DNA of 40,837 nucleotides from a virus. The notes under the pieces were generated by a model. That model was not told the DNA's origin, made no database searches, and was given only the letters and a program-made list of their open reading frames with translations. Where the stretch lies: the IMG/VR virus record IMGVR_UViG_3300042463_001585, positions 1-40,837 of that record; one strand, 5' to 3'. Made by a program: the position numbers and the translations under genes. Positions 2,743-37,838 of the stretch are shown here, one piece after another. Numbering within the stretch: position 1 is the stretch's first letter; each line of letters starts with the position of its first letter.

Positions 2743-3096
2743 TTATTTTTGTTTGTTAGCCATCTTAGGGTCAACTGACTTAGTGATAGCTTTTCCTTTG
2801 ATAACTAAATTACCGAAACTAGGATCTACTGACTTAGTGATAGCCTTTCCTTTAGGGTTTGTTTCAGCTAAGTTAGAATTAACTGACTTAGAGATTTTAG
2901 AACCTTTAGCAGCTTTAAGATCAGTCATTTTAGCGTCAACTGACTTTTTAACGCTAGAACCCTTAGGCATATCTAATTTAGCCATTTTAGGATCTACGCT
3001 TTTTCCTAATTTAGAACCTGTTGCAGGTAATACTGCCAAGTTTTGGTTAACTTTTTCAGTTAGGAACTCTGTGTAAGACAATACTGGGTTTGCCAT
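2743..3096 (-). CDS. Small basic repeat protein with a capsid-targeting-like N-terminus
   Basis: This 117-residue protein has two parts. Residues 1-26 contain SYTEFLTEK, which matches the T4 internal-protein targeting form (M-K-T-Y-Q-E-F-I-A-E) and offers a gp21-type cut after E14. Residues 27-117 are five tandem units of 18-19 residues built on KG-x-x-[IV]-x-KSV-[DN]. The protein is Lys/Ser-rich with no Cys and few aromatics after the tag. Prohead packaging with nucleic-acid or capsid contact is a reasonable guess by analogy with T4 internal proteins, but nothing in the sequence proves it. The ATG at 3096 lies just after the stop of a 25-codon ORF. A late-type box is about 155 bases upstream. 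Confidence 0.82.
   Translation of the reverse strand: MANPVLSYTEFLTEKVNQNLAVLPATGSKLGKSVDPKMAKLDMPKGSSVKKSVDAKMTDLKAAKGSKISKSVNSNLAETNPKGKAITKSVDPSFGNLVIKGKAITKSVDPKMANKQK
2746..3018 (-). repeat. Five tandem 18-residue repeats within the small repeat protein
   Basis: These are coding repeats, units of about 54 bases. Each unit reads K-G-x-x-[IVL]-x-K-S-V-[DN] plus a variable 8-9 residue spacer. The last two units share KGKAITKSVDP exactly and the first three are diverged. The spacing follows the protein unit, so this is a protein repeat and not a CRISPR array. Confidence 0.85.
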
Positions 3097-3324: not shown

Positions 3325-4842
3325 TTATGCTAATTTAGCAAGAGAACCAGATGCCAATGAGAATTGAACATACTGAGTTCCAGGGTGCCATCCAGCTTCA
3401 ACCAAAGCATATCTTGACTTCATACCGATTTTCGGAGAGAAAGTACCCTCAGAAATAGTTTGAAGAGATTCTGCCATGATGTAAGGCATGAATTTAAGAC
3501 CTGGCTCTTCGTCAGCACCTTTACGACCAATTAATACAGTCGCATCGTCAAACTTCAAGTTAGGATCAACGTATACGTTAAGACCGTAAACTTTACCAGC
3601 AGGGTACAATGTACCAGCAGCAGAACCTAAATCGTTGTTGAAAGGAGCAATTGAGTAACCAGCAGCATCAGCCATAGCAGATGCAACTTTAGCACCAACT
3701 ACTGCGAAAGTACCAGCACCAAAACGTGCTCTGTGGTAGATCAAGTTAGCAGATTCTAACATCTTGCTAGCAAGTCTTCTTTGAGCAGTTGTTACGTTTT
3801 CGAAACCACCAGTATAAGTAGCAGCAGATAAGTCTAATGTAGCAGAATAACCTTCAGCTGTTGCAGCTGCAGCAGCGTGAGTTGTTGCTAAATTCTTAAC
3901 TTTAGAAACGATTTCTTTGTTGATTGTTTGAGCAAGCTCGTTAACAGCAACATTCTCTAACATAGAGATTGCGTCGAAATTCCAAACTCTGTTAAGATCT
4001 TGGATTTGCTCAACTGTTGCAGAGATAGAAACTTGAGAAGTTTTAGCCTCAACAAACTTAGTGAACATTTTAAGACCCATTTGACGGAATTTAGAAGTTT
4101 CACCAGCACCTCTATTCATAGATTGAGTGTACTCTTGACCATCTAAGAAAGGACCATACCAAGCAGAAGCTTCAGCTGTACCTGCAGGAGCTGCAGTTGA
4201 AGTGAAACCAGAGATATGATTTTCTAAAGCAGATACTAATTCTACTTCAGCTTCTGAAACAGCAATACCTGCAGCAACCGCTTGAGCAGCAACTGAAGTA
4301 GAAGCGTCTGTACCAGAAATAACTTTGTAGATGTATTTTGCATCTAGACGAGATACACCAACATAAGCAAACTCTCTGTCACCAGTGTTATCTGGAGTTG
4401 TATCAAGAGTTGCAGTTTTGATCAAATATGGTTCAAACTCACCAGTTACGTTACCACCTTGGTAAACATAATCTAAGTAAGGAAGGAAACCAACTGGAGA
4501 GTCCATAGGAACTACACCAACTAGGTCAAAACCAATAGTTTTTGCTGCTACTTGAATAGCAACTGGCAATAAACTTGGGAATTTATCACCTGAACCATTT
4601 GCACCAGTTGTTGGAGCTAATGGGTTACCGATTCCACTGATAGAACCTGGTTGTTGATAGAATAAACCTGGAGCAACAGCTGATTCGTTGATTGCACCTG
4701 CGTTTTCGAACATTGCGTGATAGTGGCAATAATCTACTAACCAAGGACGTGAATCTGCGTTTACACCATAGCTTTCTAAAACTGGAGCCCAAGTTGACTT
4801 AACAGAGGCATCGTTTAGTCTTTTAAATACTTTTGTAGACAT
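3325..4842 (-). CDS. 23: Major capsid protein precursor, T4 gp23-like
   Basis: This 505-residue protein corresponds to T4 gp23 (521 residues), the HK97-fold subunit of the head. Expected features are the N-terminal propeptide, a prohead protease site A-I-N-E|S at E53/S54, the Gly/Pro-rich mature N-arm that follows (P-G-S-I-S-G-I-G-N-P), and the conserved tail with G-x-K-S-R-Y. Cleavage would remove about 53 residues; T4 loses 65. It lies directly downstream of the gp21-gp22 gene, as in T4, with 17 bases between them, and is followed by a strong terminator. The mature N-arm sequence is repeated at the C-terminus of the protein at 17087-18709. Identification is firm. Confidence 0.95.
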   Translation of the reverse strand: MSTKVFKRLNDASVKSTWAPVLESYGVNADSRPWLVDYCHYHAMFENAGAINESAVAPGLFYQQPGSISGIGNPLAPTTGANGSGDKFPSLLPVAIQVAAKTIGFDLVGVVPMDSPVGFLPYLDYVYQGGNVTGEFEPYLIKTATLDTTPDNTGDREFAYVGVSRLDAKYIYKVISGTDASTSVAAQAVAAGIAVSEAEVELVSALENHISGFTSTAAPAGTAEASAWYGPFLDGQEYTQSMNRGAGETSKFRQMGLKMFTKFVEAKTSQVSISATVEQIQDLNRVWNFDAISMLENVAVNELAQTINKEIVSKVKNLATTHAAAAATAEGYSATLDLSAATYTGGFENVTTAQRRLASKMLESANLIYHRARFGAGTFAVVGAKVASAMADAAGYSIAPFNNDLGSAAGTLYPAGKVYGLNVYVDPNLKFDDATVLIGRKGADEEPGLKFMPYIMAESLQTISEGTFSPKIGMKSRYALVEAGWHPGTQYVQFSLASGSLAKLA

Positions 4843-4859: not shown

Positions 4860-6209
4860 TTAGTTGTTTGCTCTTCTTTTTAGAGCGTCGAGGTATGCAT
4901 TACCATAACCTCTTTGATGTTCCGCAACTTTCTCAATCGAGATAAAACCTTCTCTACCTTGGCTTTCGTTGATGTGTTGCGCTGTTTTATTTTGTTTTTC
5001 GAAATAAATTCTTTCATTAACTCCTCTTAAATCTCTGCTCTCCCAGAAGTTTTTAACTTGGTAAGGAGTGTTAAGAACAGTTAAAGAAGCTTGAGCTTCT
5101 AAACGGCTCTTTTCTGCAGGAGTCATGCTTTCAAAAACTTCTTTGAATTTAGCAGGCATGAACTTAATTAAGTTTGGAGTATTTTCTTGTTGTTTGTTAA
5201 GAACTGATTCAATGATTTGGATAACGTCTTCTTCTTTGAAGTAAACTGCACCTGAAAGAGCTTCAATAATAGCAGTTTTTTGAGTTTGATCTAAATTAAA
5301 GAATCTTGATTTATTATCTTCGTTAAGAAGTTTTAAGAATGGATATCTGCTTTCTAATACAGATTTAGCAGAGTTATCTTTGATATGCTTAACAATTGAG
5401 TTAACTGAACTTACAATATCAGAAACATTAGAACCTTCAGAAACTTGATAGTTTACAGACTCATCTAATTTTTCGATTTGGCTAAATGCAGAGGCAGTTT
5501 TAGTAGAAAGACCTACTTTACCTTCATTTAATTCAGTTGCAATATACTCAGAATATTTAATTCCTCTTTCAAGGTTTTCAGCAAGATAGTTAGCGTAACC
5601 AATAGAGTGCTTTAAGTTTTCAGCAACGTATTCAGTGTATCTGATACCTTGTTCTGATTTTTCAGCAACATACTCAGAATATTGAATTCCTTTATCAAGG
5701 TTTTCTGCTAAGTATTCTGTGTATTTAATATTTTTGTTTACGTTTTCAGCAATATGCTCAGAGTAATCAATTGCATTATTTAGGTTTTCTCCAACGTATT
5801 CAGCATAACCGATACCTTGTTCAACTTTTTCTGCAAGATAATCAGAATAATCAATTACTTTATTAACTTTCTCAGCAACATGCTCAGAATAATTAATTGA
5901 TTTGTTCATCATTCCAGAAAGGTAATTGTTATATTCAATTACTTTGCTAAGCTCGCTTGAAAGATAGTTAACATACTCAACTAATTGTTCATTAGTTGCA
6001 GGTGTTTGTTCTTCATCTTGTTCAGCATTTGGATCTTCAACCACTGGAGCATCAGCAGGTTGGTCGTCTTCGGTAACTGCGAAGTTATCAACCATTTTAT
6101 CTACACTTTCTTTAAGTGCGTCAAACTTGCCTTTAACAAGTTCAGAGTATTGGTTGAACGCTTCTTTCGTTACAAACTCATTAGTCATGTGTTTGTTATT
6201 ATTTTCCAT
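4860..6209 (-). CDS. 22: Internal-start product: scaffold protein alone, gp22-like
   Basis: An in-frame ATG at 6209 (residue 229 of the fusion) is preceded by ATAAATAA with a 19-base gap, the same arrangement as at gp19. It would yield a 449-residue scaffold starting MENNNKHMTNEF. The site falls exactly at the boundary between the protease domain and the scaffold, and T4 makes far more gp22 than gp21. That the internal promoter works is inferred. Confidence 0.55.
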   Translation of the reverse strand: MENNNKHMTNEFVTKEAFNQYSELVKGKFDALKESVDKMVDNFAVTEDDQPADAPVVEDPNAEQDEEQTPATNEQLVEYVNYLSSELSKVIEYNNYLSGMMNKSINYSEHVAEKVNKVIDYSDYLAEKVEQGIGYAEYVGENLNNAIDYSEHIAENVNKNIKYTEYLAENLDKGIQYSEYVAEKSEQGIRYTEYVAENLKHSIGYANYLAENLERGIKYSEYIATELNEGKVGLSTKTASAFSQIEKLDESVNYQVSEGSNVSDIVSSVNSIVKHIKDNSAKSVLESRYPFLKLLNEDNKSRFFNLDQTQKTAIIEALSGAVYFKEEDVIQIIESVLNKQQENTPNLIKFMPAKFKEVFESMTPAEKSRLEAQASLTVLNTPYQVKNFWESRDLRGVNERIYFEKQNKTAQHINESQGREGFISIEKVAEHQRGYGNAYLDALKRRANN

Positions 6210-6893
6210 AGTTTGTACTATCTCTTCATTATTTATCTTATAAACTTTGATTGATTCCTCGAGGTTTAAGCTTTCAGAAATATCAACCAATTTATTTACA
6301 ATTGACGTAGATTTAATATTTTCCAAAGATTCGAAAAGCATAGAGTAATTGCTTTGGAAGCTCTCGTTAACAGATCTTCTAAGAACAGCTTCACTGAAAC
6401 CAGGTTCAGCTACTAGATCGTATGTGAATATTCTTTGGATTTTTACTTTACCTTCATTCATTACCTGACCAGCGGCTCTTGAAGAAGTTGAAATTGTACA
6501 GCCTGACTCAACTAGAGTTTTTGCAATCTGGCCAGCGGGAGTGTTAAGCAGACGTACTTTAATTTTTACGTTATTAGAATTTTGATCGTACCATAATTTC
6601 TCAACTACGTGAGAAACGTTTTTAAGTGAAACGTCAAAATTTTGAGGGTGGTCTAGCTCACCAAATAATTGACCTCTTTCGATTTTCTCGTTTAGGTATT
6701 CTAGGTGAGGAAGATACTCTGCTTTTTCGTAGATACGGTTGTTGTTATTCTTTGTGTCAAATACTGCACAAACACCTTCCATAACGATATCACCATTATC
6801 TAGTTTTGCTGAGTTTAAACCTTCATTTACTCTTTCTATAATGAAGAGCATATCTGAGGTTTTTGTAATTTCGTTTACGCCTGTAAGGACCAC
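4860..6893 (-). CDS. 21-22: Prohead protease fused to scaffold protein, gp21-gp22
   Basis: The 677-residue product has an N-terminal domain like T4 gp21 (212 residues). G-E-L-D-H-P carries His82, I-S-T-S-S-R carries the serine nucleophile (Ser137 or 138), and Asp159 is a possible third catalytic residue. Residues 229-677 are a mostly helical scaffold with an acidic linker (272-300), then 14-residue repeats (308-458), then a C-terminal region. In T4 these are two genes. Many L/I/V-x-E sites (V-N-E at 24 and 177, L-N-E at 457, I-N-E near the end) suit self-cleavage. The start is a GTG at 6893, 18 bases after a late-type box; an ATG at 6854 is an alternative, since T4 gp21 begins near there. An internal promoter and ATG precede residue 229. 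Confidence 0.9.
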   Translation of the reverse strand: MVLTGVNEITKTSDMLFIIERVNEGLNSAKLDNGDIVMEGVCAVFDTKNNNNRIYEKAEYLPHLEYLNEKIERGQLFGELDHPQNFDVSLKNVSHVVEKLWYDQNSNNVKIKVRLLNTPAGQIAKTLVESGCTISTSSRAAGQVMNEGKVKIQRIFTYDLVAEPGFSEAVLRRSVNESFQSNYSMLFESLENIKSTSIVNKLVDISESLNLEESIKVYKINNEEIVQTMENNNKHMTNEFVTKEAFNQYSELVKGKFDALKESVDKMVDNFAVTEDDQPADAPVVEDPNAEQDEEQTPATNEQLVEYVNYLSSELSKVIEYNNYLSGMMNKSINYSEHVAEKVNKVIDYSDYLAEKVEQGIGYAEYVGENLNNAIDYSEHIAENVNKNIKYTEYLAENLDKGIQYSEYVAEKSEQGIRYTEYVAENLKHSIGYANYLAENLERGIKYSEYIATELNEGKVGLSTKTASAFSQIEKLDESVNYQVSEGSNVSDIVSSVNSIVKHIKDNSAKSVLESRYPFLKLLNEDNKSRFFNLDQTQKTAIIEALSGAVYFKEEDVIQIIESVLNKQQENTPNLIKFMPAKFKEVFESMTPAEKSRLEAQASLTVLNTPYQVKNFWESRDLRGVNERIYFEKQNKTAQHINESQGREGFISIEKVAEHQRGYGNAYLDALKRRANN
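5520..5972 (-). repeat. Ten-plus tandem 14-residue repeats in the scaffold
   Basis: Residues 308-458 of the fusion consist of ten full 14-residue units and one partial unit, consensus [ST]-E-Y-[VIL]-A-E-x-[LV]-x-x-x-I-x-Y, for example SEHVAEKVNKVIDY and TEYLAENLDKGIQY. Fourteen residues equal two heptads, so a long regular helix or coiled coil with a tyrosine ladder is expected. Units are diverged at DNA level. Confidence 0.9.
6229..6236 (-). promoter_or_regulatory. Internal late-type promoter box within gp21-gp22
   Basis: ATAAATAA on the minus strand lies inside the coding region of the fusion, 19 bases before the in-frame ATG at 6209. Box and spacing match those before gp19 and the 68-residue gene at 34781-34987. 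Confidence 0.55.
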
Positions 6894-6963: not shown

Positions 6964-7827
6964 CTATTTAGTCTTATTTATTAGGCTTATTAGATCCAGC
7001 TTCTCAGAATCAGTTAGTTTATCGAAATTAGGAACCTTGGTGTGAATTTTAAAGATATAAGAACCTTTATTTTGTGTGCCAGTTGACATTCCTCTACCAG
7101 GAATAGTTATTCTAATGTCATTAAATGACTTAGCTTTGATTGACTTTATTTTAAAATTGGTTCCAGAAACTGAAGTAAAAATAAAATTTTCAATATTAAT
7201 TAGTTCATCGAGACTTACTTCTCGATTATCAATAATATTACCTGATACATCAAGAGAAACTCCAGCCGGTAATACAATATCCAATAAAACATACAAATTG
7301 CCAATAAATGCACGGTTAAACATGCTTCCACCTCCAAGTTTTCCATGATTTCCCATATTTTGAAAGGTTAATCTGGAAAAGGCCTTATTGCCATCGAATA
7401 TTAATTGGTGTTTAGTTGTATCTGGGTTAAGATCAACACTAAATCTAATCGGAGAAGATTCTCCCCTTTTTGTGTAAGTAACCTCAATAGTTTTTCCAAT
7501 TAACAAATCTTTAAGATCGATTTTTTGGTTAACAACAATGTCTAGATTAAGACCCCAGTTTTGAGTGAAAATATCTTCAGCCGCAAAGCCGCCAAACATG
7601 TCTCTAAGATCTTCAAACGTTGATCCAGCAGATCCGCCTCGATCGTAGTTTTTGCGTTTTTCCGCATCTCCTAATACACCATAAGCCTCAGCGATTTCCT
7701 TAAATTTGGATTCGCCGTCTGGATTTTTATCAGGGTGATATTTTACAACAAGCTTTCGGTAAGCCTTTTTAATATCTTCCTGACTGCATCCACGCTCTAC
7801 TTCTAGTATATTATAATAGTCTTTCAC
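6964..7827 (-). CDS. DnaJ/CbpA-type Hsp40 co-chaperone
   Basis: A 287-residue J-domain protein. Residues 1-65 form a J domain with the HPD motif at 31-33 that stimulates DnaK ATPase, followed by K-E-I-A-E-A-Y and Y-D-R-G-G. The cysteine-rich zinc finger and long Gly/Phe region of full DnaJ are absent, so it is of the CbpA (type II) kind. The remainder reads as a beta-rich DnaJ C-terminal substrate-binding domain, ending with the P-G-R-G-M segment and a last helix. No DnaK is in the window, so it would work with the host chaperone. It lies between the hub spike gene and gp21 in a late block, which suggests a role in folding virion proteins. Confidence 0.9.
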
Positions 7828-14465: not shown

Positions 14466-15185
14466 TTATCCGTGGAATGGATCGAGATCTGGATTAGGAA
14501 TCATTTTCCAGCGTCTTTCTAGATTTGCACCTTGACCTCGTGCAAGTTGAATTTCTTGTGAATTGTGTTTAATTACCTCTAGTGCATTAATATAATCTCT
14601 AGCATCGACTAGATCTTGTACCATTTCTGCATCATCATCAGATAATAAGACTCTATAAACTACTGGATGACGCTGCTCATTAAAACGACAACGCATTATC
14701 ATCATGCTTAGTTGGCCATTGTATTCTTTCATTACACTTTTTCTAGTTGGAGCAGTTTCATCTGCTAAACCTAAATCGTGAATTCTGTCTAATTGATCTA
14801 AATAGGTATGATCAATATTTTCTTTATTAAAAGACTCAATTCCATGACAATCTGCAATTCCAAAATACCAACTAGCAGATTCAGTTGATTCATTAATGAA
14901 AGAAGAAAATCGTAATACTTTATTTTCTGCAAGTGGTTCATTTGCATCAATGAGGTCTAAATCTGCATCACGAAGATCGTAAATTTCGTCAAATGTTGTT
15001 TCTTCAAATTTAATTGGCTCCTCTAAATCAACCATGTATAAAGTTTGATCTGGAGCATAGTCTAATTTATAAACTTTTCCAATAGTTACAATTTTATTAT
15101 CAATTGGTGCGCCAACAAGATTAAGACGATCCATTGTGTCTTTGGATAATCTAAGTTTAACTCTATCTCCGATTTCGAATGCCAT
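14466..15185 (-). CDS. Candidate head-packaged protein with internal protease site
   Basis: A 239-residue protein in two parts. Residues 1-60 look like a small SH3/KOW-type barrel (F-E-I-G-D-R-V-K-L, then D-N-K-I-V-T-I-G-K-V-Y). Residues 86-99 are AENKVLRFSSFINE, followed by S-T-E-S. This 14-residue tag recurs almost exactly in the Cys-rich protein at 36488-37810, and I-N-E|S is identical to the capsid protein cleavage site. Cutting after E99 would release a 140-residue C-terminal domain beginning S-T-E-S-A-S-W-Y-F-G-I-A-D-C-H-G. That domain is not recognised; it has scattered His, Cys and Glu but no set motif. Head packaging followed by processing is inferred by analogy with T4 internal proteins. 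The start codon lies one base past the next gene's stop region. Confidence 0.78.
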   Translation of the reverse strand: MAFEIGDRVKLRLSKDTMDRLNLVGAPIDNKIVTIGKVYKLDYAPDQTLYMVDLEEPIKFEETTFDEIYDLRDADLDLIDANEPLAENKVLRFSSFINESTESASWYFGIADCHGIESFNKENIDHTYLDQLDRIHDLGLADETAPTRKSVMKEYNGQLSMMIMRCRFNEQRHPVVYRVLLSDDDAEMVQDLVDARDYINALEVIKHNSQEIQLARGQGANLERRWKMIPNPDLDPFHG

Positions 15186-15454: not shown

Positions 15455-15937
15455 TTACTTAGTCTTTTTGACATCGGCCCAAGATTTACTTGGACTTGCC
15501 GCATTTACTCTAGCCATTGCCCATTGATGAGCAGTCATTCCTGGTCTGGAACCAGAAGAGTAAAATGCACCTAGACCTTTGGTGTATTCTCGTTTTAAAT
15601 CGGCAAACGAATAACCCTTTTTATTAGCAACTGCCCTGATTTTAGCTAAAGTTTCTTTACTAAAATTAGAAGACTTTTTCTTACTAGCCTCAGTTACCTT
15701 TGAATCTGGTCTTGGTGTATTTTTCCAACCAGATTTCTTTCTTTCGGTTGCCTCCATCTCATCTCTAAGTTTATAGGCAGCATCATTTTTACCTTTATCT
15801 AGTAATTGTTTAGCCTTATCTAGCTTCTTATCTCTAGCACTTCCTTCTGGTGCTTTATATTGTGCTGGATTTTCAGAAGTTGACTTTTTCTCAAGTAAAC
15901 TTATGTATTCATTAAAAGGTTTTACGTACATATTCAT
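15455..15937 (-). CDS. Basic phage protein with conserved GAFYSSGSRPG segment and N-terminal tag
   Basis: A 160-residue Lys-rich protein. Residues 7-16 (PFNEYISLLE) have the targeting-tag form and a possible L-L-E cut. The middle is a charged helix (K-A-K-Q-L-L-D-K-G-K-N-D-A-A-Y-K-L-R-D). The C-terminal 50 residues hold G-L-G-A-F-Y-S-S-G-S-R-P-G and H-Q-W-A-M-A-R-V-N, a conserved segment of uncharacterised proteins from large DNA phages and viruses; its function is unknown to me. The high Lys content would suit contact with packaged DNA. The ATG at 15937 is four bases downstream of the previous stop. Confidence 0.78.
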   Translation of the reverse strand: MNMYVKPFNEYISLLEKKSTSENPAQYKAPEGSARDKKLDKAKQLLDKGKNDAAYKLRDEMEATERKKSGWKNTPRPDSKVTEASKKKSSNFSKETLAKIRAVANKKGYSFADLKREYTKGLGAFYSSGSRPGMTAHQWAMARVNAASPSKSWADVKKTK

Positions 15938-16732: not shown

Positions 16733-17086
16733 TTAGTTTTCCTCTTTAAAGTCAGTAAGAAGCTCAGTGTCCTTTGAATCTTCTACTTCATTCATTAAAA
16801 AGTTAAGAACCTCTTCAACATCATCTTTTGATGTTGCAATATGATCTGCCGCCCATGCATGACCGTTAGATAGGATTGAGTCTACTTTAGCCTCATCCAT
16901 TTCCAATAAAATGTCAACTAGACGCTTGATTGTTTTAAGATTTCCAAAGAACATATAGTTTTCATATTCTGCTCCATGGGAATCTTCCTCACTATGAGAA
17001 ATTTCTGGTTCGTTGTTAAATGGTTGAATTTGATTTGGTTCAAAATCATCATTAGCAAATGCTTCGAATGTTTTAATAGTTTTCAT
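16733..17086 (-). CDS. Small acidic protein with capsid-targeting-like N-terminus
   Basis: A 117-residue acidic protein starting MKTIKTFEAFANDDFE, strikingly like the T4 internal-protein leader (M-K-T-Y-Q-E-F-I-A-E). The rest is acidic: an Asn/Glu-rich linker, then a helical domain from about residue 47 to the end. No catalytic motif is visible. The ATG directly abuts the TAA of the upstream 540-residue gene. Packaging into the prohead is the favoured guess. A clean x-x-E site is less obvious here (D-D-F-E at 13-16). Confidence 0.78.
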   Translation of the reverse strand: MKTIKTFEAFANDDFEPNQIQPFNNEPEISHSEEDSHGAEYENYMFFGNLKTIKRLVDILLEMDEAKVDSILSNGHAWAADHIATSKDDVEEVLNFLMNEVEDSKDTELLTDFKEEN

Positions 17087-18709
17087 TTAGTTTTTTCCTA
17101 AATTTTTATAAAAGCTCTTAAAGTCCATAATATTCTTATTAGACTTTTTAGTTTTTCTTGGTTGGAAATTATCACCAGAACCAACGTTAGTTTGAGTAGG
17201 TGCAACCGGGTTACCTGATCCGCTTATTGAGGCAGGCGTTTGAAATGCTACACCAGGGGCAGTTGCGTCTTCTTTAACTGTGCCAGATCCAACTTTAGTT
17301 GCTCCTTTGATTTTACTTTGTGGTGCATCTAGTCCACTTTCTGAACTAGTAAAAAGAAATCTAGTCCACTTTTCTGCTTTAAGTTGAGCTTCCTTTCCTC
17401 CTAATTGCTTAGCAGTTCTGGAAATAGTTCTACCTACAACCGGTTTAGTTGCTCTTCTGGCTCTAGCAAAAACTTCTCCTAATACCTTTTGTTCGTATCC
17501 ATCAACTTCATCACTAAATTTAAGAAAACCCGAACCAATAAGATCGCCAATCTTTAGTAGATAATTAATTCTACTTGAATCTAGCATCTGTTTAGATGTA
17601 ATAGGAATTATTTGCTTTTCATATAGAGGAAGTGCAATCTCTGGAGAATATGAAACTCCTTTATAGCGCTTTAGATCTAGGTCAGTTTTATACTTACCTA
17701 GTCTTGCTCTAGCTTCCATATATGCTTCAACTGCAAGGGCCATATAGGTAGATTTAGCTTCTCTAGAAAGAGCCGTTTGATCATCAGTACCTCTCCTAGG
17801 ATCAGTCATAATCTCGGTTCTAACTTTAACAAACTTTGATTCAAGAGTATTTATGTCTGGCCAAGTTCTAAGTTCTTCAATCGCCAATCTAATAAGAACA
17901 TCACGTTTAGTAAACTTTTCAGCTCTACCTCCAGTTTTCTTGTTAAGTTCATCTGAAAGTTCTTTAATCTTTCTCTTAAGCTCTTCTATCTTTTCTTGAC
18001 TTTCATCGTATTTAATAGCTTGATCTTCTTCAAACTCTGGACTAACTATTTCAATGAAATCAATATCTTCAATGTCTGGTTCAACTCGGTTTTTCTTTTT
18101 AGAAAAACCATCTAATATTTCTGCGATTTGAACGGCTTGTCTAACATCGTCCTTAATTGCTTCATCATCAGTTGAATCTTTTCCAAAATTAGATTCAACG
18201 TATTTCATTAAAGTTTCAGCTTGAGTTGCCTTTTCTTCACCAAGATCAGATGCTGCAATTTTTAGTTTAGATAAAAGATCATTTACCTCCTTTGTCCATT
18301 TGGACTCTTCTATTGCGTGATATGCATCCCAGATAGTTTTTAATCTTTGCTCATATACATTGATTCTTGCTTGCTGAGTAGTTGTATCTTGACCGTTTTT
18401 AATTAGATCTTCCAATTCAGAAATTTCTAATTTTAAGACTTGTGAAACATAATCAATATACTTATCTAAAATTTTGATCCATTGGGTTTGCAAGAATACT
18501 TGACTAAGTTGTTCTAAGATAACCGGATCAGTTTTAGATTTATTAATAATATCCTTTTCTATCAACATAGATAGAAATGCATCTAATTTTGCAAGCATAT
18601 CTGCATCATTTTCGATGCTAATTATATCATTGGCTTCATTTCCAATAATAATAAGGTCAGCCTCCAATAGAAGATGTTCTAGAATATTTATGTGTTTAAA
18701 TTTAAGCAT
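17087..18709 (-). CDS. Head-associated protein whose C-terminus mimics the mature capsid N-arm
   Basis: A 540-residue mostly helical, charged protein. Residues 1-340 have several coiled-coil-like stretches (for example K-I-E-E-L-K-R-K-I-K-E-L-S-D-E-L). The N-terminus (M-L-K-F-K-H-I-N-I-L-E, L-L-L-E-A) resembles a targeting tag. Residues 478-480 are V-K-E, then D-A-T-A-P-G, and residues 481-516 match residues 54-89 of the major capsid protein at 21 of 36 positions, including S-I-S-G-x-G-N-P and G-S-G-D-x-F. The gene ends with M-D-F-K-S-F-Y-K-N-L, another tag-like segment. I infer a scaffold- or capsid-lining protein cut by gp21 to release a roughly 60-residue capsid-mimic peptide. The ATG overlaps the upstream stop (TAATG). 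Confidence 0.8.
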   Translation of the reverse strand: MLKFKHINILEHLLLEADLIIIGNEANDIISIENDADMLAKLDAFLSMLIEKDIINKSKTDPVILEQLSQVFLQTQWIKILDKYIDYVSQVLKLEISELEDLIKNGQDTTTQQARINVYEQRLKTIWDAYHAIEESKWTKEVNDLLSKLKIAASDLGEEKATQAETLMKYVESNFGKDSTDDEAIKDDVRQAVQIAEILDGFSKKKNRVEPDIEDIDFIEIVSPEFEEDQAIKYDESQEKIEELKRKIKELSDELNKKTGGRAEKFTKRDVLIRLAIEELRTWPDINTLESKFVKVRTEIMTDPRRGTDDQTALSREAKSTYMALAVEAYMEARARLGKYKTDLDLKRYKGVSYSPEIALPLYEKQIIPITSKQMLDSSRINYLLKIGDLIGSGFLKFSDEVDGYEQKVLGEVFARARRATKPVVGRTISRTAKQLGGKEAQLKAEKWTRFLFTSSESGLDAPQSKIKGATKVGSGTVKEDATAPGVAFQTPASISGSGNPVAPTQTNVGSGDNFQPRKTKKSNKNIMDFKSFYKNLGKN

Positions 18710-19128
18710 TAGTCTAGGGTTAATCTGTAAGCTAATTTATTTTTAAGAGATAAAAACTCATCTCTTAAGTTATACAATTCAGTATTTGATTCTTGTTCGA
18801 ATATTTCACAAAAATCTTGGCAAAATACCTTTTCGATATTTTGAATAAAGATTGGCATAGCTGACTCATAATCCATTACAAGAATAGCACTACCTCCAAC
18901 TTTAAATCTGCCGTATTTTCCAATAACTTGCTCAGCAATTTCATCAACTAAACCTAGGAAATCATCATAAAATGCACCAAATGCATTATGTTGAGCTTCG
19001 TTAGTTGTTTGCCAATGTAAAATATGAGCTTGGTCTCTAATTTGTAGTAGACTTAACATGAACGTAGATACATCCATGCCCTCGATTTGAGGTTCGTCTA
19101 GTCCGCTTTGTAATTCAAATGGAATCAT
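18709..19128 (-). CDS. Dps/ferritin-like small protein
   Basis: A 139-residue product from the ATG at 19128. A longer reading from an ATG at 19152 adds eight residues. I prefer 19128 because it forms an ATGA overlap with the stop of the upstream small gene. R-D-Q-A-H-I-L-H-W-Q-T, then Q-H-N-A-F-G-A-F-Y-D-D-F and V-D-E-I-A-E-Q, follow the H-W...H...D...E layout of the Dps ferroxidase site, and a known phage family has this H-W-Q-T...G-K-Y-G form. Dps proteins oxidise and store iron and shield DNA. The C-terminal half is helical. Whether it oligomerises or binds iron cannot be seen. It is downstream of a late-type box. Confidence 0.78.
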   Translation of the reverse strand: MIPFELQSGLDEPQIEGMDVSTFMLSLLQIRDQAHILHWQTTNEAQHNAFGAFYDDFLGLVDEIAEQVIGKYGRFKVGGSAILVMDYESAMPIFIQNIEKVFCQDFCEIFEQESNTELYNLRDEFLSLKNKLAYRLTLD

Positions 19129-19304
19129 TTCTTTGTAGTTTGTTTTTTCCAATCGGCGAACGGTTTAATCCAAAATGTTCTATTTGTTTCCTTCTTTAAT
19201 AGATCCATAATTGGATTTTCTCCACTTGGATGTTGCATAACCGCATTTTCCAATCTGGTCTTACCCTGGAGATAATCTTTATAGTTTTTCTGAGAAGAAT
19301 TCAC
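19125..19304 (-). CDS. Small basic protein, GTG start
   Basis: A 59-residue ORF from GTG at 19304 to TGA at 19125-19127 fills most of an otherwise empty 190-base gap. It begins VNSSQKNYKDYLQGKTRLEN and is basic, with W-I-K-P-F-A-D-W near the end. Support: an ATAAATAT box lies 18 bases before the GTG, like the other late boxes, and the stop overlaps the next gene's ATG in an ATGA. Function unknown. Confidence 0.65.
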   Translation of the reverse strand: MNSSQKNYKDYLQGKTRLENAVMQHPSGENPIMDLLKKETNRTFWIKPFADWKKQTTKK

Positions 19305-22260: not shown

Positions 22261-22761
22261 TTAGTCTAGTGATCCGTATTTACCAGCTGACATGTCTTTT
22301 GCAAACTCTTGGCCAGCCTTAGATGAAACTCCAAGGTTAATACCTTTTAGTAAGCCAGCATCTTCTGGGTTTTCTTCAAAATAGGTAACTAATTGATCCA
22401 AGTTAATATTTTGATATGGTTGGATAGTTCCCTCAGGAAGTTTCTTTTCTAATTCTCTACCAGAAGAATAGTCTTTCCAGTTAAGATTCCAACAGTAAAA
22501 TTTAACTTCTTGCTTCATTTTTGATGCAAAATAGTGATCAATATCTGCAAGTCTTGCCTGAACCTCTGAAAGATCTGTTTTGTATGAAGTAGAGTGTCCA
22601 TAGATATCAGCCGGGGTTCCGATACTTAAGCTATCTGAAGTTAAATCTGTTAATTTAACCAATTTGTCCATTAGCTCCTGAAATGGTATGCCTTTAAGAT
22701 CTTGAGTATCTTCTGCTTCATTTAAGAATTGCTTGAAGTCTCCAATTACGCGATTTGTCAT
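22261..22761 (-). CDS. Hypothetical protein with capsid-targeting-like N-terminus
   Basis: A 166-residue protein starting MTNRVIGDFKQFLNEAED. D-F-K-Q-F-L-N-E|A matches the T4 internal-protein leader and gp21 site very well (cut after E15). The mature part of about 150 residues is mixed helix and strand with V-K-F-Y-C-W-N-L-N-W and has no motif I recognise. A late-type box lies 21 bases before the ATG. It is placed between the kinase and the ligase-fusion genes, so it may be injected with, or assist, the repair set. Function unknown. Confidence 0.8.
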   Translation of the reverse strand: MTNRVIGDFKQFLNEAEDTQDLKGIPFQELMDKLVKLTDLTSDSLSIGTPADIYGHSTSYKTDLSEVQARLADIDHYFASKMKQEVKFYCWNLNWKDYSSGRELEKKLPEGTIQPYQNINLDQLVTYFEENPEDAGLLKGINLGVSSKAGQEFAKDMSAGKYGSLD

Positions 22762-22790: not shown

Positions 22791-23382
22791 CCCGAACTAG
22801 TTTTTGGATTAAATCGCAGAACTCATCAACTGATTCTGAATCAAAATTATTTGTGAATGTATTAAATGAATTACCTAATCGACCTTCTTTAAATGTCCAT
22901 GGAGCAGATTGAATTAAATTATGCATAATTCTTTTTTCTTCACTTGGTGAAATTAAGCCATCCCATAGGTCTTTTTGACGAGATTGGTCTTGTTTAAATT
23001 GATCGGGTGCATCAATCATAATAGTTTTACAGTCTTGATAGCCAGGACGATTAATTAGACCAGCCAGCTCAGATTGAGCTTCATCAAAGGTTATTCGATT
23101 CCATAAAGTAGCCCAGGTGGCAGCTGTAATATGAGCTCTGTCAAATACAAAAATCTTTTCTGGAAATTGCTTATGTAGATCTAGGATTGTCATAATATTA
23201 CCCATGCTAAAGTAGTGGATTCCTTTATCTGACTTATCCCAATCTTTAACGATTGCAGAGTATTCGTTTGCTAGGTAAAATTTATAATAAAATAGGTTTA
23301 GATCAGCACCATGTCTTTCAATTAATTGGTTTAGCAAATAGGTTTTGCCTGAATGACGTGTGCCTTCAATAAAAATTATCAT
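22783..23382 (-). CDS. P-loop kinase, possible polynucleotide or nucleotide kinase
   Basis: A 199-residue protein with a Walker A motif at the N-terminus (G7-T-R-H-S-G-K-T14) and V-F-D-R-A-H near residue 80, as in dNMP and polynucleotide kinases where the D-R pair contacts the acceptor phosphate. A Q-S-R-Q-K lid-like segment near 135 could supply catalytic arginines. Size and layout fit a small nucleotide kinase or a stand-alone kinase half of a Pnkp-type enzyme. Its ATG overlaps the stop of the HAD phosphatase gene, so the two are translationally coupled, and the ligase fusion lies downstream. T4 Pnkp joins kinase and HAD phosphatase in one chain; here they would be two. The substrate is not shown by sequence. 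Confidence 0.75.
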   Translation of the reverse strand: MIIFIEGTRHSGKTYLLNQLIERHGADLNLFYYKFYLANEYSAIVKDWDKSDKGIHYFSMGNIMTILDLHKQFPEKIFVFDRAHITAATWATLWNRITFDEAQSELAGLINRPGYQDCKTIMIDAPDQFKQDQSRQKDLWDGLISPSEEKRIMHNLIQSAPWTFKEGRLGNSFNTFTNNFDSESVDEFCDLIQKLVRDK

Positions 23383-23909
23383 GAGTATTTAAGTTGTATT
23401 CTTTCTCTAGTTAATATACCAATATTTCCATTGATTTGAAGTAGTTCAGTCTTATCAACAAACCAATATTCAATCTTTTCAGTGACTTTAGAAAGATATG
23501 GATTTTTGACATACTTATCGATTTGAACCAATGAGTCTTCGAATATTCGAATTGTATCAAAGTTTGGTCCAACCTTATCTAAGTACTCCAATAACATCTG
23601 TGGCTTGTCAGTATTTCTTTCACATAGGATAATTTGATCAAATCTTTTACTAATACCAAACTTATCCAATACAGCTTCCATGGCCTTTCTAGTTTTCTCA
23701 ACTCGGTGACTTAATATAATAGTAGTATGGTCTTCGGATAATTGGTTAAATACTGATTCAATTAACTGTAATCGATAGAGATTTGTATTCAGGGACTTTG
23801 GATTATCAAACCATTCGTATGGCTTTTTAAATTCTGTTCCTGCATGGGTAAATGGCGGAACTCTAAAGAGGGTTTCATCAAAATCGACTACGTTTAAAAC
23901 TTGCTTCAT
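23379..23909 (-). CDS. HAD-superfamily phosphatase, RNA-repair-type
   Basis: A 176-residue HAD protein. Motif I is V-D-F-D-E-T-L (Asp9 nucleophile, Asp11 acid), motif II I-L-S-H-R, motif III Lys in K-P-Q-M-L-L-E and motif IV I-F-E-D-S. The segment R-V-P-P-F followed by P-Y-E-W-F-D-N-P is reminiscent of the HAD domain of Swiss-Army-Knife RNA repair proteins; this is recalled, not searched. I start it at the ATG at 23909; an in-frame TTG at 23966 would run into the divergent gene and adds no domain. It overlaps the kinase gene by four bases, so 3'-phosphate removal paired with 5'-phosphorylation is a sensible hypothesis. The TATAAT box upstream suggests early or middle expression. Confidence 0.8.
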   Translation of the reverse strand: MKQVLNVVDFDETLFRVPPFTHAGTEFKKPYEWFDNPKSLNTNLYRLQLIESVFNQLSEDHTTIILSHRVEKTRKAMEAVLDKFGISKRFDQIILCERNTDKPQMLLEYLDKVGPNFDTIRIFEDSLVQIDKYVKNPYLSKVTEKIEYWFVDKTELLQINGNIGILTRERIQLKYS

Positions 23910-23946
23910 ATGAAATAAATAACTTTGAAATAATATTATACTAAAA
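23910..23946. promoter_or_regulatory. Divergent promoter region
   Basis: This 37-base AT-rich gap separates minus-strand repair genes from plus-strand recombination genes. Minus strand: TATAAT at 23940-23935, 25 bases before the ATG. Plus strand: TAACTTTG at 23920-23927 fits the Bacteroidota -7 box TAnnTTTG, with about 19 bases to the TTG start. No convincing TTTG -33 box is found. An ATAAATAA also occurs on the plus strand at 23915-23922. Confidence 0.5.
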
Positions 23947-24408
23947 TTGAACTTAGAGTTTATCAAAGGAGAGTACGAGGGTAATAGAGTTAATCTGGTT
24001 AGGGAAACTATTCAGAGAAAGCAGCCCTTTGTCATCTTTACTTTTAGTAATCCAAAGATTTATCGTCAAGTTTTAACAGATTTATCCAAATTTGGTGCAC
24101 TTCCATATGTTCGTCAGACATTTATTCCAAATGTTCAAATGGGCGGCTATCCTATAATATACCCAAGTATTTTTGTAACAAACGTCGGATCTGATGTAAA
24201 AGACGGAGAATTTAAACAAATGATGCTTGGCAGCTTAAAACAATATCACATTGATTCTATTATTTGTCTCTATGCTGGACAGCTTAGTTCATATTATAAA
24301 AATGGAGATACCCATTCAATTGGAACTGACATTTATACAACATTGGATCCACGTGAATTTGAAAGCTATTACTTTAAATTGGAGAGTACTTGTTATACCT
24401 TTGTCTAA
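23947..24408 (+). CDS. Hypothetical protein upstream of uvsY
   Basis: A 153-residue protein read from a TTG at 23947; no ATG or GTG is available in frame before the conserved-looking core. It alternates strands and helices (F-V-I-F-T-F-S, I-I-Y-P-S-I-F-V-T-N-V-G, I-D-S-I-I-C-L-Y) like a small Rossmann-type fold, with D-T-H-S-I-G-T-D near 123. No family is recognised. It leads the plus-strand cluster with uvsY and uvsW, so a part in recombination or replication is possible. It may share the divergent promoter with the HAD gene. Confidence 0.72.
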   Translation: MNLEFIKGEYEGNRVNLVRETIQRKQPFVIFTFSNPKIYRQVLTDLSKFGALPYVRQTFIPNVQMGGYPIIYPSIFVTNVGSDVKDGEFKQMMLGSLKQYHIDSIICLYAGQLSSYYKNGDTHSIGTDIYTTLDPREFESYYFKLESTCYTFV

Positions 24409-31936: not shown

Positions 31937-33646
31937 ATGGCAGGATTTCTAGACAATATCGGCTTAGGCGGACTTAAATCAAGACTATCAGATTTAAGCC
32001 GAGTTGGTATGAAGTACGAGGATCTTTTAATTAAGAACTCACAATCGATAGGATTTATTGAAAGTCAGCTAATGCAAGCTAGAGGAAGCGCTCTACCTGG
32101 TGGACAAACTGATTCTTTAGCTAGAGCTACAATGGCAATATCAGATACAACATCTGCTCTTAGAACTAAAGCTATTGCATTCTTTCAATTAGATTACGCA
32201 ACAAAAAGAGAAAGACTAAGAGATCTTGCATCAAATGGTGAAATTGAATTTGTAATCGAATCAATTACCGATGACGTTATTGTATTTGATGAAGATAACC
32301 GTTTTGCATATCCAAATGACCTAGTTGGAGAAATGCTCTATAAAGGAAAAAATAAAGAGCAGCGTCTTAAGTATCAAGAAAAAGTTATTGAAAAATATAA
32401 CGAAAATTTTGAAAGAATCTACAATGCATGGGGTTTCAATGAAGGAATTTCAGCATGGCAGTATTTTTATCAATGGTTAATTGAAGGACATTTGGCATTT
32501 GAGATTCTTTATGATGATTTACAAAACCCAAGAGAAATTATTGGATTTAAAGAAGTCGATCCATCTACTCTATATCCTCAAATTAAAAAGGACGCAGCTG
32601 GAAAGATCTTTTTAGAATGGGCCCAAAAAGTTGCTGGAGAATCTAAAGTAAGAACCCTTACCGATTCCCAAGTTCTTTACTTATCATATTCAAACCATTT
32701 TAGAACTAAACGTATTTCTTTTGTTGAGCGAATGGTTAGATCATTTAACTTAATGCGTGTTATTGAGCACTCTAAAGTTATTTGGCATACAATGAATGCT
32801 CCTATTCGTTTAACTACTAAAGTTCCAATTGGAAGTAAGTCTCTAAACAAAGCAAAAGAAGACGTTCGTGAATTTGCAAACCAATTAAAGGAAGATATTT
32901 TCTTTGATACTAATACTGGAGAAATCCAAGTAGACGGCCGCCCTAACCTATTATTCTATAAGAATTATATTTTACCAGTAAACGATCAAAACCAAGCAAT
33001 TGAAATTGCTCCATTGGAATACGCAGGTCCTAATATGTCAGGATCAGAGCTTCTTAACTATTTCAAAGAAAAGTTAAAGATGGACTCTAAGATTCCTTAT
33101 TCAAGATGGGATTCTGCAAATGGCGCAGGTCAATATACAATGAATGCTGAAGGTATTCGTCGTGAAGAAATTCGTTATAATAAATTTGTAACTCGTCTTC
33201 GTTCAGCGTTTAAAGAATTATTGACAAAGCCTCTATATCTTCAAATGTGTCTTGATTTTAAAGATCTAAAAGATGATTACCGTTTTAAAAACGCAGTCGG
33301 TATTAACTGGCATGATGATAACGTATTTGAAGAAATCAAACAACAAGATTTACTTAATAAGCGTCTTGCTACACTTAATGCCCTTAAAGGAGTTGTTGAT
33401 GATGAAGGTAAGCCATACTTCTCTACTGAATACTTGGTTAAAGAGTATTTAAGAATGAGCGATGAGGATCTTCAAAAGAATAAAGATTATATGAATCAAA
33501 CTCCAACTGGAGAGGGTGAAGCTGGAGAAGCTGCAGCACCAGGAGCAGCACCAGAAGCAGGTTCTGCCCCAGAAGGAGGCGCAGGCGCTGAAGCCGCTGC
33601 TGGTAAAGAAACAGCTAGCGAATTAGGAGCTCCTGGAGCTTTATAA
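31937..33646 (+). CDS. 20: Portal vertex protein, T4 gp20-like
   Basis: A 569-residue protein corresponding to T4 gp20 (524 residues), the dodecameric ring through which DNA is packaged and the start point of prohead assembly. Evidence: E-G-H-L-A-F-E-I-L-Y-D, K-E-V-D-P-S-T-L-Y-P, the gp20 signature region I-P-Y-S-R-W-D-S-A-N-G-A-G-Q-Y-T-M then G-I-R-R-E-E-I-R-Y-N-K-F-V-T-R-L-R, and L-Q-M-C-L-D-F-K-D-L near 440. The last 40 residues are Ala/Gly/Glu/Pro-rich and probably disordered, an extension not seen in T4. The stop is one base from the stop of the convergent gp25-like gene; no terminator is visible. Confidence 0.94.
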   Translation: MAGFLDNIGLGGLKSRLSDLSRVGMKYEDLLIKNSQSIGFIESQLMQARGSALPGGQTDSLARATMAISDTTSALRTKAIAFFQLDYATKRERLRDLASNGEIEFVIESITDDVIVFDEDNRFAYPNDLVGEMLYKGKNKEQRLKYQEKVIEKYNENFERIYNAWGFNEGISAWQYFYQWLIEGHLAFEILYDDLQNPREIIGFKEVDPSTLYPQIKKDAAGKIFLEWAQKVAGESKVRTLTDSQVLYLSYSNHFRTKRISFVERMVRSFNLMRVIEHSKVIWHTMNAPIRLTTKVPIGSKSLNKAKEDVREFANQLKEDIFFDTNTGEIQVDGRPNLLFYKNYILPVNDQNQAIEIAPLEYAGPNMSGSELLNYFKEKLKMDSKIPYSRWDSANGAGQYTMNAEGIRREEIRYNKFVTRLRSAFKELLTKPLYLQMCLDFKDLKDDYRFKNAVGINWHDDNVFEEIKQQDLLNKRLATLNALKGVVDDEGKPYFSTEYLVKEYLRMSDEDLQKNKDYMNQTPTGEGEAGEAAAPGAAPEAGSAPEGGAGAEAAAGKETASELGAPGAL

Positions 33647-35006: not shown

Positions 35007-35014
35007 TTATTTAT
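35007..35014 (-). promoter_or_regulatory. Late-type promoter box overlapping the HAD-nucleotidyltransferase stop
   Basis: ATAAATAA, 19 bases before the ATG at 34987; its last TAA is the stop codon of the upstream gene. Confidence 0.6.
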
Positions 35015-36350
35015 CGGAAATATAGTCCGAAAAAGTTTTTATACGGCTTGTTCCAGAACCCGGATTTGCTCCAAGTTCTTGTCTTCCACCTTTATACATG
35101 CCCCATTGTGCAGGTATCTTTAATGTTCCACTGACTCTCTGCGGAGCTCGTTCTGGCGGCAAATCATCCATATCTGGATTGCTTTTAGTACGGTCTCTGA
35201 GTAATTCTGGGGTTAGCAGGTCCTCTTCAATCTTTCCGCCTAATATCATCCAAACCTTTTTGGGATCCTTTCCTTCAGGGATCCCCTGTGAAAAACTATT
35301 GAAATCTTGAGCTAACCAAAACTCTCTCATTAAAGTTCCAGAAACACCATCCTCGTCTCCGTCTGAACCAGTATTTCCTCCAAATTCAGGACGAGCTGTT
35401 TCAATTCGGTTAATTTTAGAGATACTGCCTCTCCACTTTTCCATGGCAGCCCATCTAGGCATGTCTTTATCTGTTGCATAAAGATTAACCACTGTATTTG
35501 GAGCATATTGGGTTTTACCAAGCGCCTCAACAAATTCATATCCACTTCTAACTGGGGTAACATCCGCTAGGTGGAGTTCAACGTTATCAAAATCTTCTAG
35601 ATAATATTCTAAAACTTCCATTGCAGTCTTACCGCTAATACCAGCCATTTCAGTTTTTGAAATAAAAACATGAACCTCATCGTTTTCCTCTGCAATTTTT
35701 GCAATTGCTTCATAGTGACCAGCATGAGGTGGCTTAAATTTACCACTAAAGATTCCAACTGTTCTGATATCTAATTTTGGAACTTGAGTACGACCAATTT
35801 TTCTAGTCTTCATTGTAATTTCTTCAAACTCATCCTCTAGACTCTTTGCAAGTTCTAGGTTTTTACGATCATCGTCATAAAAAGTAAAGTGTCTAAACCC
35901 TTTAGTGATTAGTTTTCGGAAGGCTTCTTTTTTCTTTTCTGCAATAGTTCCTTCAAATCCAAATTCTGGATCGCTAACCGCATAGATTAATTTTGGGTGA
36001 ATATCAATCCCATGGGACAATAGAAATTCTCTGACTAGTTTCTTATTATCTCTAGCTGTAATAATGCCGACAGCAGTCCCAGATTCATAGGCAGAACGTA
36101 ATATATTAAGTACCCATTCTACTAATCTTCCAGCCTTTAAAATATTAGCATCATTAAATTGATTATAGTCTACTTCGTGATGTGGTTCCTTTTCATATTC
36201 ATTAAACTCCTGTGGAGTAAGATCAAAGGTTTCACCAGTAAGTGCATCCTTAACTAGGATCTTTGCATTAGTGACAACTAGTGTGTCATCTAAATCAAAT
36301 ATGATAATTGAGTTATCTCTAGAAAATGCCATTTCGTTTACTCTTTGCAC
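35007..36350 (-). CDS. HAD phosphatase fused to NMNAT-type nucleotidyltransferase, C-terminal tag
   Basis: A 447-residue two-domain protein. Residues 13-170: HAD domain with I-F-D-L-D-D-T-L (two Asp), I-I-T-A-R and F-Y-D-D-D. Residues 190-350: HIGH-superfamily nucleotidyltransferase with G-I-F-S-G-K-F-K-P-P-H-A-G-H and V-S-G-T-L-M-R, matching G-x-F-x-P-x-H-x-G-H and I-S-x-T-x-x-R of NMN adenylyltransferases. Both active sites look intact. NAD synthesis or phospho-ester repair are options; the substrate is not shown. The C-terminus (R-I-K-T-F-S-D-Y-I-S-D-K) is tag-like, so it may be packaged. The start is GTG at 36350, 17 bases past a late box and followed by V-N-E; ATG at 36332 is an alternative. 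Confidence 0.82.
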   Translation of the reverse strand: MQRVNEMAFSRDNSIIIFDLDDTLVVTNAKILVKDALTGETFDLTPQEFNEYEKEPHHEVDYNQFNDANILKAGRLVEWVLNILRSAYESGTAVGIITARDNKKLVREFLLSHGIDIHPKLIYAVSDPEFGFEGTIAEKKKEAFRKLITKGFRHFTFYDDDRKNLELAKSLEDEFEEITMKTRKIGRTQVPKLDIRTVGIFSGKFKPPHAGHYEAIAKIAEENDEVHVFISKTEMAGISGKTAMEVLEYYLEDFDNVELHLADVTPVRSGYEFVEALGKTQYAPNTVVNLYATDKDMPRWAAMEKWRGSISKINRIETARPEFGGNTGSDGDEDGVSGTLMREFWLAQDFNSFSQGIPEGKDPKKVWMILGGKIEEDLLTPELLRDRTKSNPDMDDLPPERAPQRVSGTLKIPAQWGMYKGGRQELGANPGSGTSRIKTFSDYISDK

Positions 36351-36487: not shown

Positions 36488-37810
36488 TTATTTAAGTGAT
36501 TTTCCTATTGCGGTTGCACCGAGTTGATATTCTTCTGGAGTAATACCCATGTCAGCTGCCTGATCTTCAACAGATAGCGATAATAATTTATCTTGATTTT
36601 GGCTAGTCCAATTTGCAACGATTGCTGCAATTTGTTCAGGTGTTTTTGAGTTATCCGACTCATTTACATCATCATTTTCCATTTCCATTAAACCGTTTCT
36701 ATAACAACCGATTGCTTCTGCAACATAATCATTATATTCAGTTATGGTTTCATCATTATGAATTTCCAATGCTTCACTACAAAGTTTTTCGCAAACTTCT
36801 TTGATCATTTCACAAGTAGATTCATAGCAAGCAGATTCGTTATTCCAGCCTTCATTAATTGTCATGCCGTCATCCACCATTTCGTACATACACTTTTCCA
36901 TATAAGCACAAGCTTCATTAATATAGCCTTCAAATTGATGTTCTGGATCTGAATCTGCTTCATACATTGAAGCATCTGAACAAGTCGATTCACATATAGA
37001 TTCAATTAAGTGATGTGCAGCTTCAGATAACATAGATTTACTTCCATCATGGCAAGTATGACCCATTCCTTCTGCCATATACTCAGAATTTCCTGGAGTA
37101 TTCATTATTCTTCCATTGGGCATATCTAAACGGTCCTTTCCAATTCCATATTCAAATTTATTTGAATTGTGACCTAATTCTTCTGGGTTTTCGCCATCTC
37201 CTTCTTCATCCCAATATTCAGCTTCACAGTGTTCTCCACAATCAGAGCAAATATCGCCCATCATAACTGAAGCACCGCAGCAATTTGAGGTTGCACCATG
37301 TTCATATGCATCTCTTGGATCCCATGATTCATTCATCTTTTGGTGAGCCTTTGCTGAATCATAGATAGATTTTAACCAAGCTTCAAACTCTTTAGCTTCA
37401 CCGGCTTTATCTAAACCTTTATAACGGCCATCCGCTTTAAATGCTCTAACGAAACTTTTAAATGTTTTAGACTCTTGTGCTAAGATATCGATTTCTGACA
37501 TTACGCCCTCTTTGATAGCAACTGTCTTTTTCTTTTTAATAGCATCAGTTTTAAATGCTTTGTAATCTTCAAAGTCATTATCACCGTCTCCGTCCTTATC
37601 GTACTTTGGATTGTATTTTTTCTTTTCATTTACAAATTGTGTAAATCTTAGAACTTTATTTTCAGCGATAGCTGGTTCTTGATCACAAGTTTCGCACTCT
37701 TCTGTAACCTGAGGGTTACGGCCAGTTTCATTATCAAACTGTTCGTCCTCTGAGTAGTAATTTGGCTTCTTTAGGAAAGCAGGTAAGTCTTTATTAGAAA
37801 ATTTTCCCAT
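36488..37810 (-). CDS. Cys-rich precursor with EF-hand and zinc-ribbon-like motifs and gp21-type sites
   Basis: A 440-residue acidic protein. Residues 49-62 are AENKVLRFTQFVNE, almost the same tag as in the protein at 14466-15185. D-K-D-G-D-G-D-N-D-F-E-D near 70-81 has the spacing of an EF-hand calcium loop. N-C-C-G-A...C-S-D-C-G-E-H-C near 175-195 resembles a zinc ribbon. Residues 250-385 are a Cys/Met/Glu-rich helical region, with M-N-E|S, I-N-E|A, I-N-E|G and V-N-E|S sites scattered through, so gp21 could cut it into several pieces. No family is recognised. It has its own late box (20 bases before the ATG) and terminator, thus a single-gene unit, which suggests strong expression. Confidence 0.8.
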   Translation of the reverse strand: MGKFSNKDLPAFLKKPNYYSEDEQFDNETGRNPQVTEECETCDQEPAIAENKVLRFTQFVNEKKKYNPKYDKDGDGDNDFEDYKAFKTDAIKKKKTVAIKEGVMSEIDILAQESKTFKSFVRAFKADGRYKGLDKAGEAKEFEAWLKSIYDSAKAHQKMNESWDPRDAYEHGATSNCCGASVMMGDICSDCGEHCEAEYWDEEGDGENPEELGHNSNKFEYGIGKDRLDMPNGRIMNTPGNSEYMAEGMGHTCHDGSKSMLSEAAHHLIESICESTCSDASMYEADSDPEHQFEGYINEACAYMEKCMYEMVDDGMTINEGWNNESACYESTCEMIKEVCEKLCSEALEIHNDETITEYNDYVAEAIGCYRNGLMEMENDDVNESDNSKTPEQIAAIVANWTSQNQDKLLSLSVEDQAADMGITPEEYQLGATAIGKSLK

Positions 37811-37830: not shown

Positions 37831-37838
37831 TTATTTAT
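37831..37838 (-). promoter_or_regulatory. Late-type promoter box before the Cys-rich precursor gene
   Basis: The minus strand reads ATAAATAAC, 20 bases before the ATG at 37810, overlapping the stop codon of the ClpC-like gene. Confidence 0.6.

Follow-up and report, generated by a model that had tools for sequence, protein, structure and literature searches.

A C-terminal copy of the major capsid protein arm in a T4-type phage as a possible case of a recurring self-capsid mimic

In the major capsid protein (MCP) of phage T4, gp23, the segment termed the N-fist (residues 66-91) directly follows the cut made by the prohead protease gp21 and contacts four subunits. The N-fist has no ordered structure within the prohead and settles into position when the shell expands; in T4, disorder is also seen for the five N-fists that face the portal (PMC9958956, PMC7136217). 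N-fists are named for gp23 only, not for gp24, in the passages of a review that deal with them (PMC9958956), and gp21 was reported to cut after L/I-X-E (PMC9026906). A further T4 protein, gp61.1, appears in a gene table that gives it no function (PMC3468402). The literature searched, mostly outside subscription journals, contained neither a role for gp61.1 nor an N-arm mimic.

The window analyzed here is an entire virus record of 40,837 bases from a T4-type phage, of which the MCP is nearest, among those of named phages, to the MCPs of LR756500 (462 kb; 37%) and the Lak phages (36%). Its features are collected in Table 1. The MCP and protease genes adjoin, and the portal gene lies apart. The structure model of the MCP (mean pLDDT of 50.6, with the arm near 30) was too poor for use. 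Several other observations were made in this window. In the protease, the protease domain is followed by approximately 10 repeats of the YSEYVAENL type; the protease of PTm1 is annotated as scaffold and protease combined. A 117-aa ORF adjoining the MCP gene (2743-3096, minus strand) consists mostly of K-S-V-D/N repeats. Two otherwise unlike ORFs (14466-15185 and 36488-37810, both minus) have an internal segment, ENKVLRF(S/T)xF(I/V)NE, in common, which resembles a head-targeting leader with a protease site at its end. Two minus-strand ORFs in the head and tail region, 6964-7827 and 37835-39826, are presumably DnaJ-like and Clp-ATPase-like, respectively.

Table 1. Positions in the window of the head genes and of the parts of the arm-bearing protein
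Feature	Position	Strand	Evidence
MCP, 505 aa	3325..4842	-	Pfam Gp23 E 2.5e-47; phrog_138 major head protein
Copied MCP arm (MCP residues 54-89, after I-N-E↓S)	4576..4683	-	alignment
Prohead protease, C-terminal part rich in repeats	4860..6893	-	Pfam Peptidase_S77 E 7.4e-12; phrog_207 head maturation protease
Carrier gene, 540 aa; body all-helical in model	17087..18709	-	ORF; AlphaFold2
N-terminal leader, residues 1-16, ending LLLE↓A; possible second protease site	18662..18709	-	E16 at least 90% conserved, 22 rows
V-K-E↓D protease-like site before arm copy, residues 478-481	17267..17278	-	E480 at least 90% conserved, 22 rows
MCP-arm copy, residues 481-516	17162..17269	-	alignment, tblastn, hhalign, conservation
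Lys-rich linker, residues 518-526	17132..17158	-	sequence, alignment
C-terminal F-x-x-F motif, residues 527-540	17090..17131	-	F530 invariant, F533 nearly so, 22 rows
Portal protein	31937..33646	+	phrog_213 E 5.3e-64

The 540-aa protein, hereafter the carrier, and the MCP can be aligned over the arm without gaps, and 21 of the 36 residues are identical. In both proteins, the similar stretch runs from the Glu site to GSGDxF. The local score between the carrier and the MCP was 121, while 1000 shuffles gave a mean of 39 (s.d. 5.4) and a maximum of 66; shuffles of the tail against the arm reached 55 at most (n = 5000). When the carrier was searched against its own record by tblastn, the MCP arm was found with an E-value of 1.5e-9 (53% over 43 aa). 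The tail family and the MCP-arm family were matched by hhalign with a probability of 98.2 and a score of 74, in comparison to scores of 21.8 or less for 50 column-permuted controls and of 7.5 to 14.6 for four other MCP stretches and five body stretches. Thus, a chance match is rejected, and so is low-complexity similarity, as the match is position-specific and the permuted controls scored low. A recent DNA copy is rejected as well, because only 9 of the 21 identical residues use the same codon. Altogether, the shuffles, tblastn, and the profile-profile comparison confirmed the original prediction of the ungapped copy, and the diverged codons, together with the retention of the tail across relatives (see below), bear out its view that conservation acts on the peptide and not on the DNA. 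Its position for the tail was correct, while the MCP arm, placed at 4573-4683, needed correction to 4576-4683. A gp21-type site had been claimed before both segments; this holds for I-N-E↓S of the MCP, while V-K-E↓D of the tail is close to, not identical with, L/I-X-E.

The AlphaFold2 model of the carrier had a mean pLDDT of 62 and a pTM of 0.45, with residues 454-528 below 50 and a helix at residues 530-536. The possibility of the carrier being a paralogue of the MCP or gp24 was rejected, as there is no Pfam Gp23 match, the model is all-helical, and the MCP profile matches the tail only. In the MCP-profile search of 11 records of the clades to which the window belongs, no gp24-like protein was detected; 10 of the 11 gave one further match, which was always the carrier tail, and the eleventh (of clade 3) gave zero. 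The carrier has no Pfam or PHROG family assignment: the sole PHROG match up to an E-value of 0.1 was phrog_8657 (E 0.02), and no match to the T4-type scaffold gp22 was found in PHROG or Pfam up to the same E-value. The top BFVD match in the fold search of the body was an uncharacterised phage protein (E 1.9e-10), and nothing was found below 0.001 against the PDB. Three members of the carrier family gave no tblastn match in named phages, so it is the arm and not the body that links the carrier to them. We infer that the carrier is a prohead-core protein, and its Glu motifs suggest that it may be cleaved at E16 and E480. The C-terminal F-x-x-F motif can be read as resembling head-targeting leaders. 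As a separate observation, F-x-x-F/Y occurs near one end in 5 of the 39 window ORFs tested (shuffles: mean of 1.65, with 8 of 300 reaching 5), namely 35007-36350 (minus; C-terminal), 15455-15937, 16733-17086, and 22261-22761 (all minus), and 23379-23966, of which the start is possibly wrong.

The scan of viral contigs for the carrier detected five loci, one identical, one with 90%, and three with 55-58% identity. By profile search, the body was found in 27 of the 41 records holding or neighbouring a related MCP. The wider profile, applied to 10 of the other 14 records, found the body in one (G027) and the tail only, in a 94-aa frame, in another (G030); the absence of the carrier from the 12 remaining records means little, as these are contigs of 19-78 kb. 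The tail was found in all of the 22 distinct relatives read, two of which, both in clade 3, keep the first part only; the absence from close relatives that would have spoken against the original prediction was not seen. In the clade 3 tails, only PG..xQTP-A/G-T/S-L is clear, and the likeness is weaker still in G027 and G030. Across the 84 pairs of a clade 1 with a clade 2 sequence, identity is 55.7% in the arm copy and 21.1% in the body. The MCP arm of clade 2 bears an insert between APT and GSGD and the tails are without it, so the copy preserves both ends of the arm but not the loop. In five pairs, dN/dS was 0.087-0.251 for the tail and 0.068-0.252 for the body; the tail exceeded the body in four of the five, so the expectation of a slower tail in close pairs did not hold there. 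Thus, constraint on the tail is striking over long distances but, among close relatives, no stronger than that on the body.

The original prediction knew of no such mimic in T4, but gp61.1, a 54-aa hypothetical protein, looks like one. When the gp23 arm was searched against the whole T4 record, gp23 itself and one other place, gp61.1 (E 3.1e-4), were found; own-arm scoring (see below) pointed the same way, and the top match of gp61.1 among PDB sequences was gp23 (E 0.0067), with an alignment spanning the cleavage site. gp61.1 consists of the leader MKTFKEFIKE, a gp23-like stretch, and lysines, and has GD.G.N..NI..G.TSGAV...GP in common with gp23 from residue 68 on. We take its leader to resemble the IPIII type. 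T4 gp61.1 matches phrog_1823 and phrog_2086, the latter being the long form; the longer form with a C-terminal copy was found in four of the six relatives examined. In T4 and these six, a primase or helicase gene adjoins the gp61.1 gene or is close by. The gp61.1 query matched 1,437 phage records with E-values of 1 or lower, some of them at gp23 instead. In the record of Serratia phage 4S, the gp61.1 gene carries the name 'major capsid protein', as do three further matches of the gp61.1 query; annotation software has thus already met the likeness.

Whole-record searches found second arm copies in PTm1, LR756500, LR756501, and 15 Lak records besides T4, on carriers that appear mutually unrelated. 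The copy of PTm1 is in ORF-299 (E 4.3e-5), of which the gene adjoins the portal gene and lies between the portal and protease genes; those of LR756500 and LR756501 are in frames of 140 aa (E 8.0e-5) and 107 aa (E 0.0016), respectively. In the own-arm scoring described below, each of these three copies scored highest against the arm of its own MCP. In the Lak phages (TAG read as Gln), a separate small ORF carries a Lak-type arm (80 aa in Lak-C1, 76 aa in A1, and 71 aa in B1) and begins near the arm copy, without a leader of the T4 or LR756501 kind. gp102 of pT24 is a tentative further copy. No arm copy was found in MA9V-2 or PAU (profile and own-arm search), in cyanophage S-SZBM1 (own-arm search), in five records of the wider group, all partial contigs, or in LR756504 and MaF61, which were searched with a profile that contained their arms but missed T4 gp61.1, found by the own-arm search alone. 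Besides these, a different short frame of LR756501 (230505-230552; E 0.01) bears a weak third match to part of the MCP arm, TLNQNGMGRIIAP, and LR756500 and LR756501 both have other MCP-like places outside the MCP gene, with best E-values of 2.8e-11 and 1.3e-10, which may represent vertex-protein paralogues or fragments. In Lak-C1, a 377-aa ORF (177-1310), which resembles a transposon protein, is directly upstream of the arm-copy ORF (1465-1707); an ORF of 245-251 aa is in its place in Lak-A1 and B1.

As an alternative, the arm copy of the uncut protein might hold a core protein to the inner shell until cutting releases the core, as the original prediction also proposed. Carriers with a sizeable body do exist (the 540-aa protein, PTm1 ORF-299, and the long gp61.1 forms) and, in other phages, a C-terminal helix attaches the scaffold to the shell (PMC5644958), but there is hardly any body, if any, in the Lak, T4, and LR756501 versions, the T4 N-fist is disordered before expansion (PMC9958956) and its docking site may thus not exist in the prohead, and the cleavage-like site between the body and the arm copy further weakens the proposal. 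We regard such a tether as unlikely. It is also quite unlikely, in our judgement, that a common partner such as the protease, a chaperone, or a decoration protein reads the stretch, the MCP arm site not being the target. The Glu site precedes both stretches and T4 N-fists help form the Soc binding site (PMC9958956), whereas the match continues for approximately 35 residues beyond the site, few determinants are said to suffice for gp21 (PMC9026906), and the leaderless Lak layout fits poorly.

The copies match their own MCPs between lineages but show no fine matching within clades. Across nine lineages, which are not fully independent and were partly found by own-arm searching that favours own-like finds, the own pairings of mimic and arm summed to 710, while random pairings had a mean of 346 and none of 200,000 reached 710. 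The own arm scored best in seven of the nine, and the own pair exceeded all of 2000 shuffles in eight; the exception was pT24, for which 98 of 2000 scored equally high. Among seven Straboviridae, the own pairing was slightly favoured (1.9% of permutations were equally high; own ranks of 3, 1, 2, 6, 2, 1, and 4 of 7). Inside the clades of the window, own ranks ran from 1 to 19 of 20, and clade 2 tails scored slightly higher against clade 1 arms (83.2) than against the insert-bearing arms of their own clade (79.8). The lack of fine matching and the absence of the copy from five named phages searched would suit a functionless relic of a captured MCP-gene fragment, but the arm copy is kept where the body is only 21% identical, dN/dS is below 0.26 in all five pairs, and the copy recurs on other carriers; a relic is thus very improbable.

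We slightly favour the reading that the tail is a self-capsid mimic, a peptide of a core protein that is freed by the protease and docks where the N-fist of the MCP would, perhaps at the portal or vertices. The last 60 residues would be a copy of the N-fist-like arm of the own MCP whose likeness to that arm has been maintained. The carrier would be made as a prohead-core protein and cut by the prohead protease at E480↓D481, as the MCP would be at E53↓S54, and the new N-terminus of the freed peptide would resemble that of the mature MCP. On shell expansion, the peptide may occupy N-fist docking positions of neighbouring MCPs, most plausibly those without an MCP N-fist around the portal and perhaps at vertices, with its Lys-rich end staying near the DNA or portal. 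Since the clades of the window yielded no gp24-like protein, the portal vertex is the likelier place there. gp61.1 would act likewise in T4, and the short versions that stand alone in Lak, LR756501, and T4 are consistent with a freed peptide working at the arm site. Alternatively, the freed peptides might compete with the MCP arms for sites and thereby delay or tune expansion. The same docking surface is expected from the sequence, but a few copies could not outcompete hundreds of MCPs, and we give such a timer little probability.

The original interpretation is thus partly supported and widened, and the tail is best treated as one instance of a self-capsid mimic that recurs, for which T4 gp61.1 offers the tractable case. 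A possible but doubtful extension is that T4-type phages commonly encode a peptide, freed by the protease or standing alone, that is copied from the N-fist of their own MCP and stays matched to it. It would fill the sites left empty by symmetry at the portal and other vertices, so that the expanded shell is sealed there or expansion begins there, and the module would move between unrelated carriers and include gp61.1. The finding points to an unstudied step of viral head building. If the proposed mimicry is true, the best-studied phage head contains a component without an assigned role in the literature searched, and the handling of symmetry-failing sites by the shell becomes testable in T4 through a single small gene. 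A head role would then also be suggested for a hypothetical gene family with matches in about 1,400 phage records, and the arm copy could serve as a marker for head proteins of huge phages.

Among known systems, the T4 internal proteins IPII and IPIII have a short capsid-targeting leader ending in a gp21 site, but are not described as copies of the MCP arm in the account consulted (PMC9026906). The T4 vertex protein gp24 is, like the carrier tail, related to gp23 and is cut by gp21, but keeps the whole fold, and the source names an N-arm but no N-fist for it (PMC9958956), while the carrier copies the arm only. In the 80alpha scaffold and SaPI1 CpmB, a short capsid-binding C-terminal segment, RIIK, is common to two proteins (PMC5644958); there the two are both scaffolds, while here the segment is common to the carrier and the capsid protein itself. 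The layout resembles that of gp61.1 of Straboviridae (phrog_1823; long form, phrog_2086): the Glu site, the copy of the own MCP arm, and the basic, Lys-rich end follow in the same order in the carrier. The two differ in the carrier and in the gene place, as the 540-aa protein has no profile match to phrog_1823 or phrog_2086, its neighbours (16733-17086 and 18709-19152) match no primase or helicase family, unlike the setting of the gp61.1 gene, and the T4 form lacks a body and starts with a short leader.
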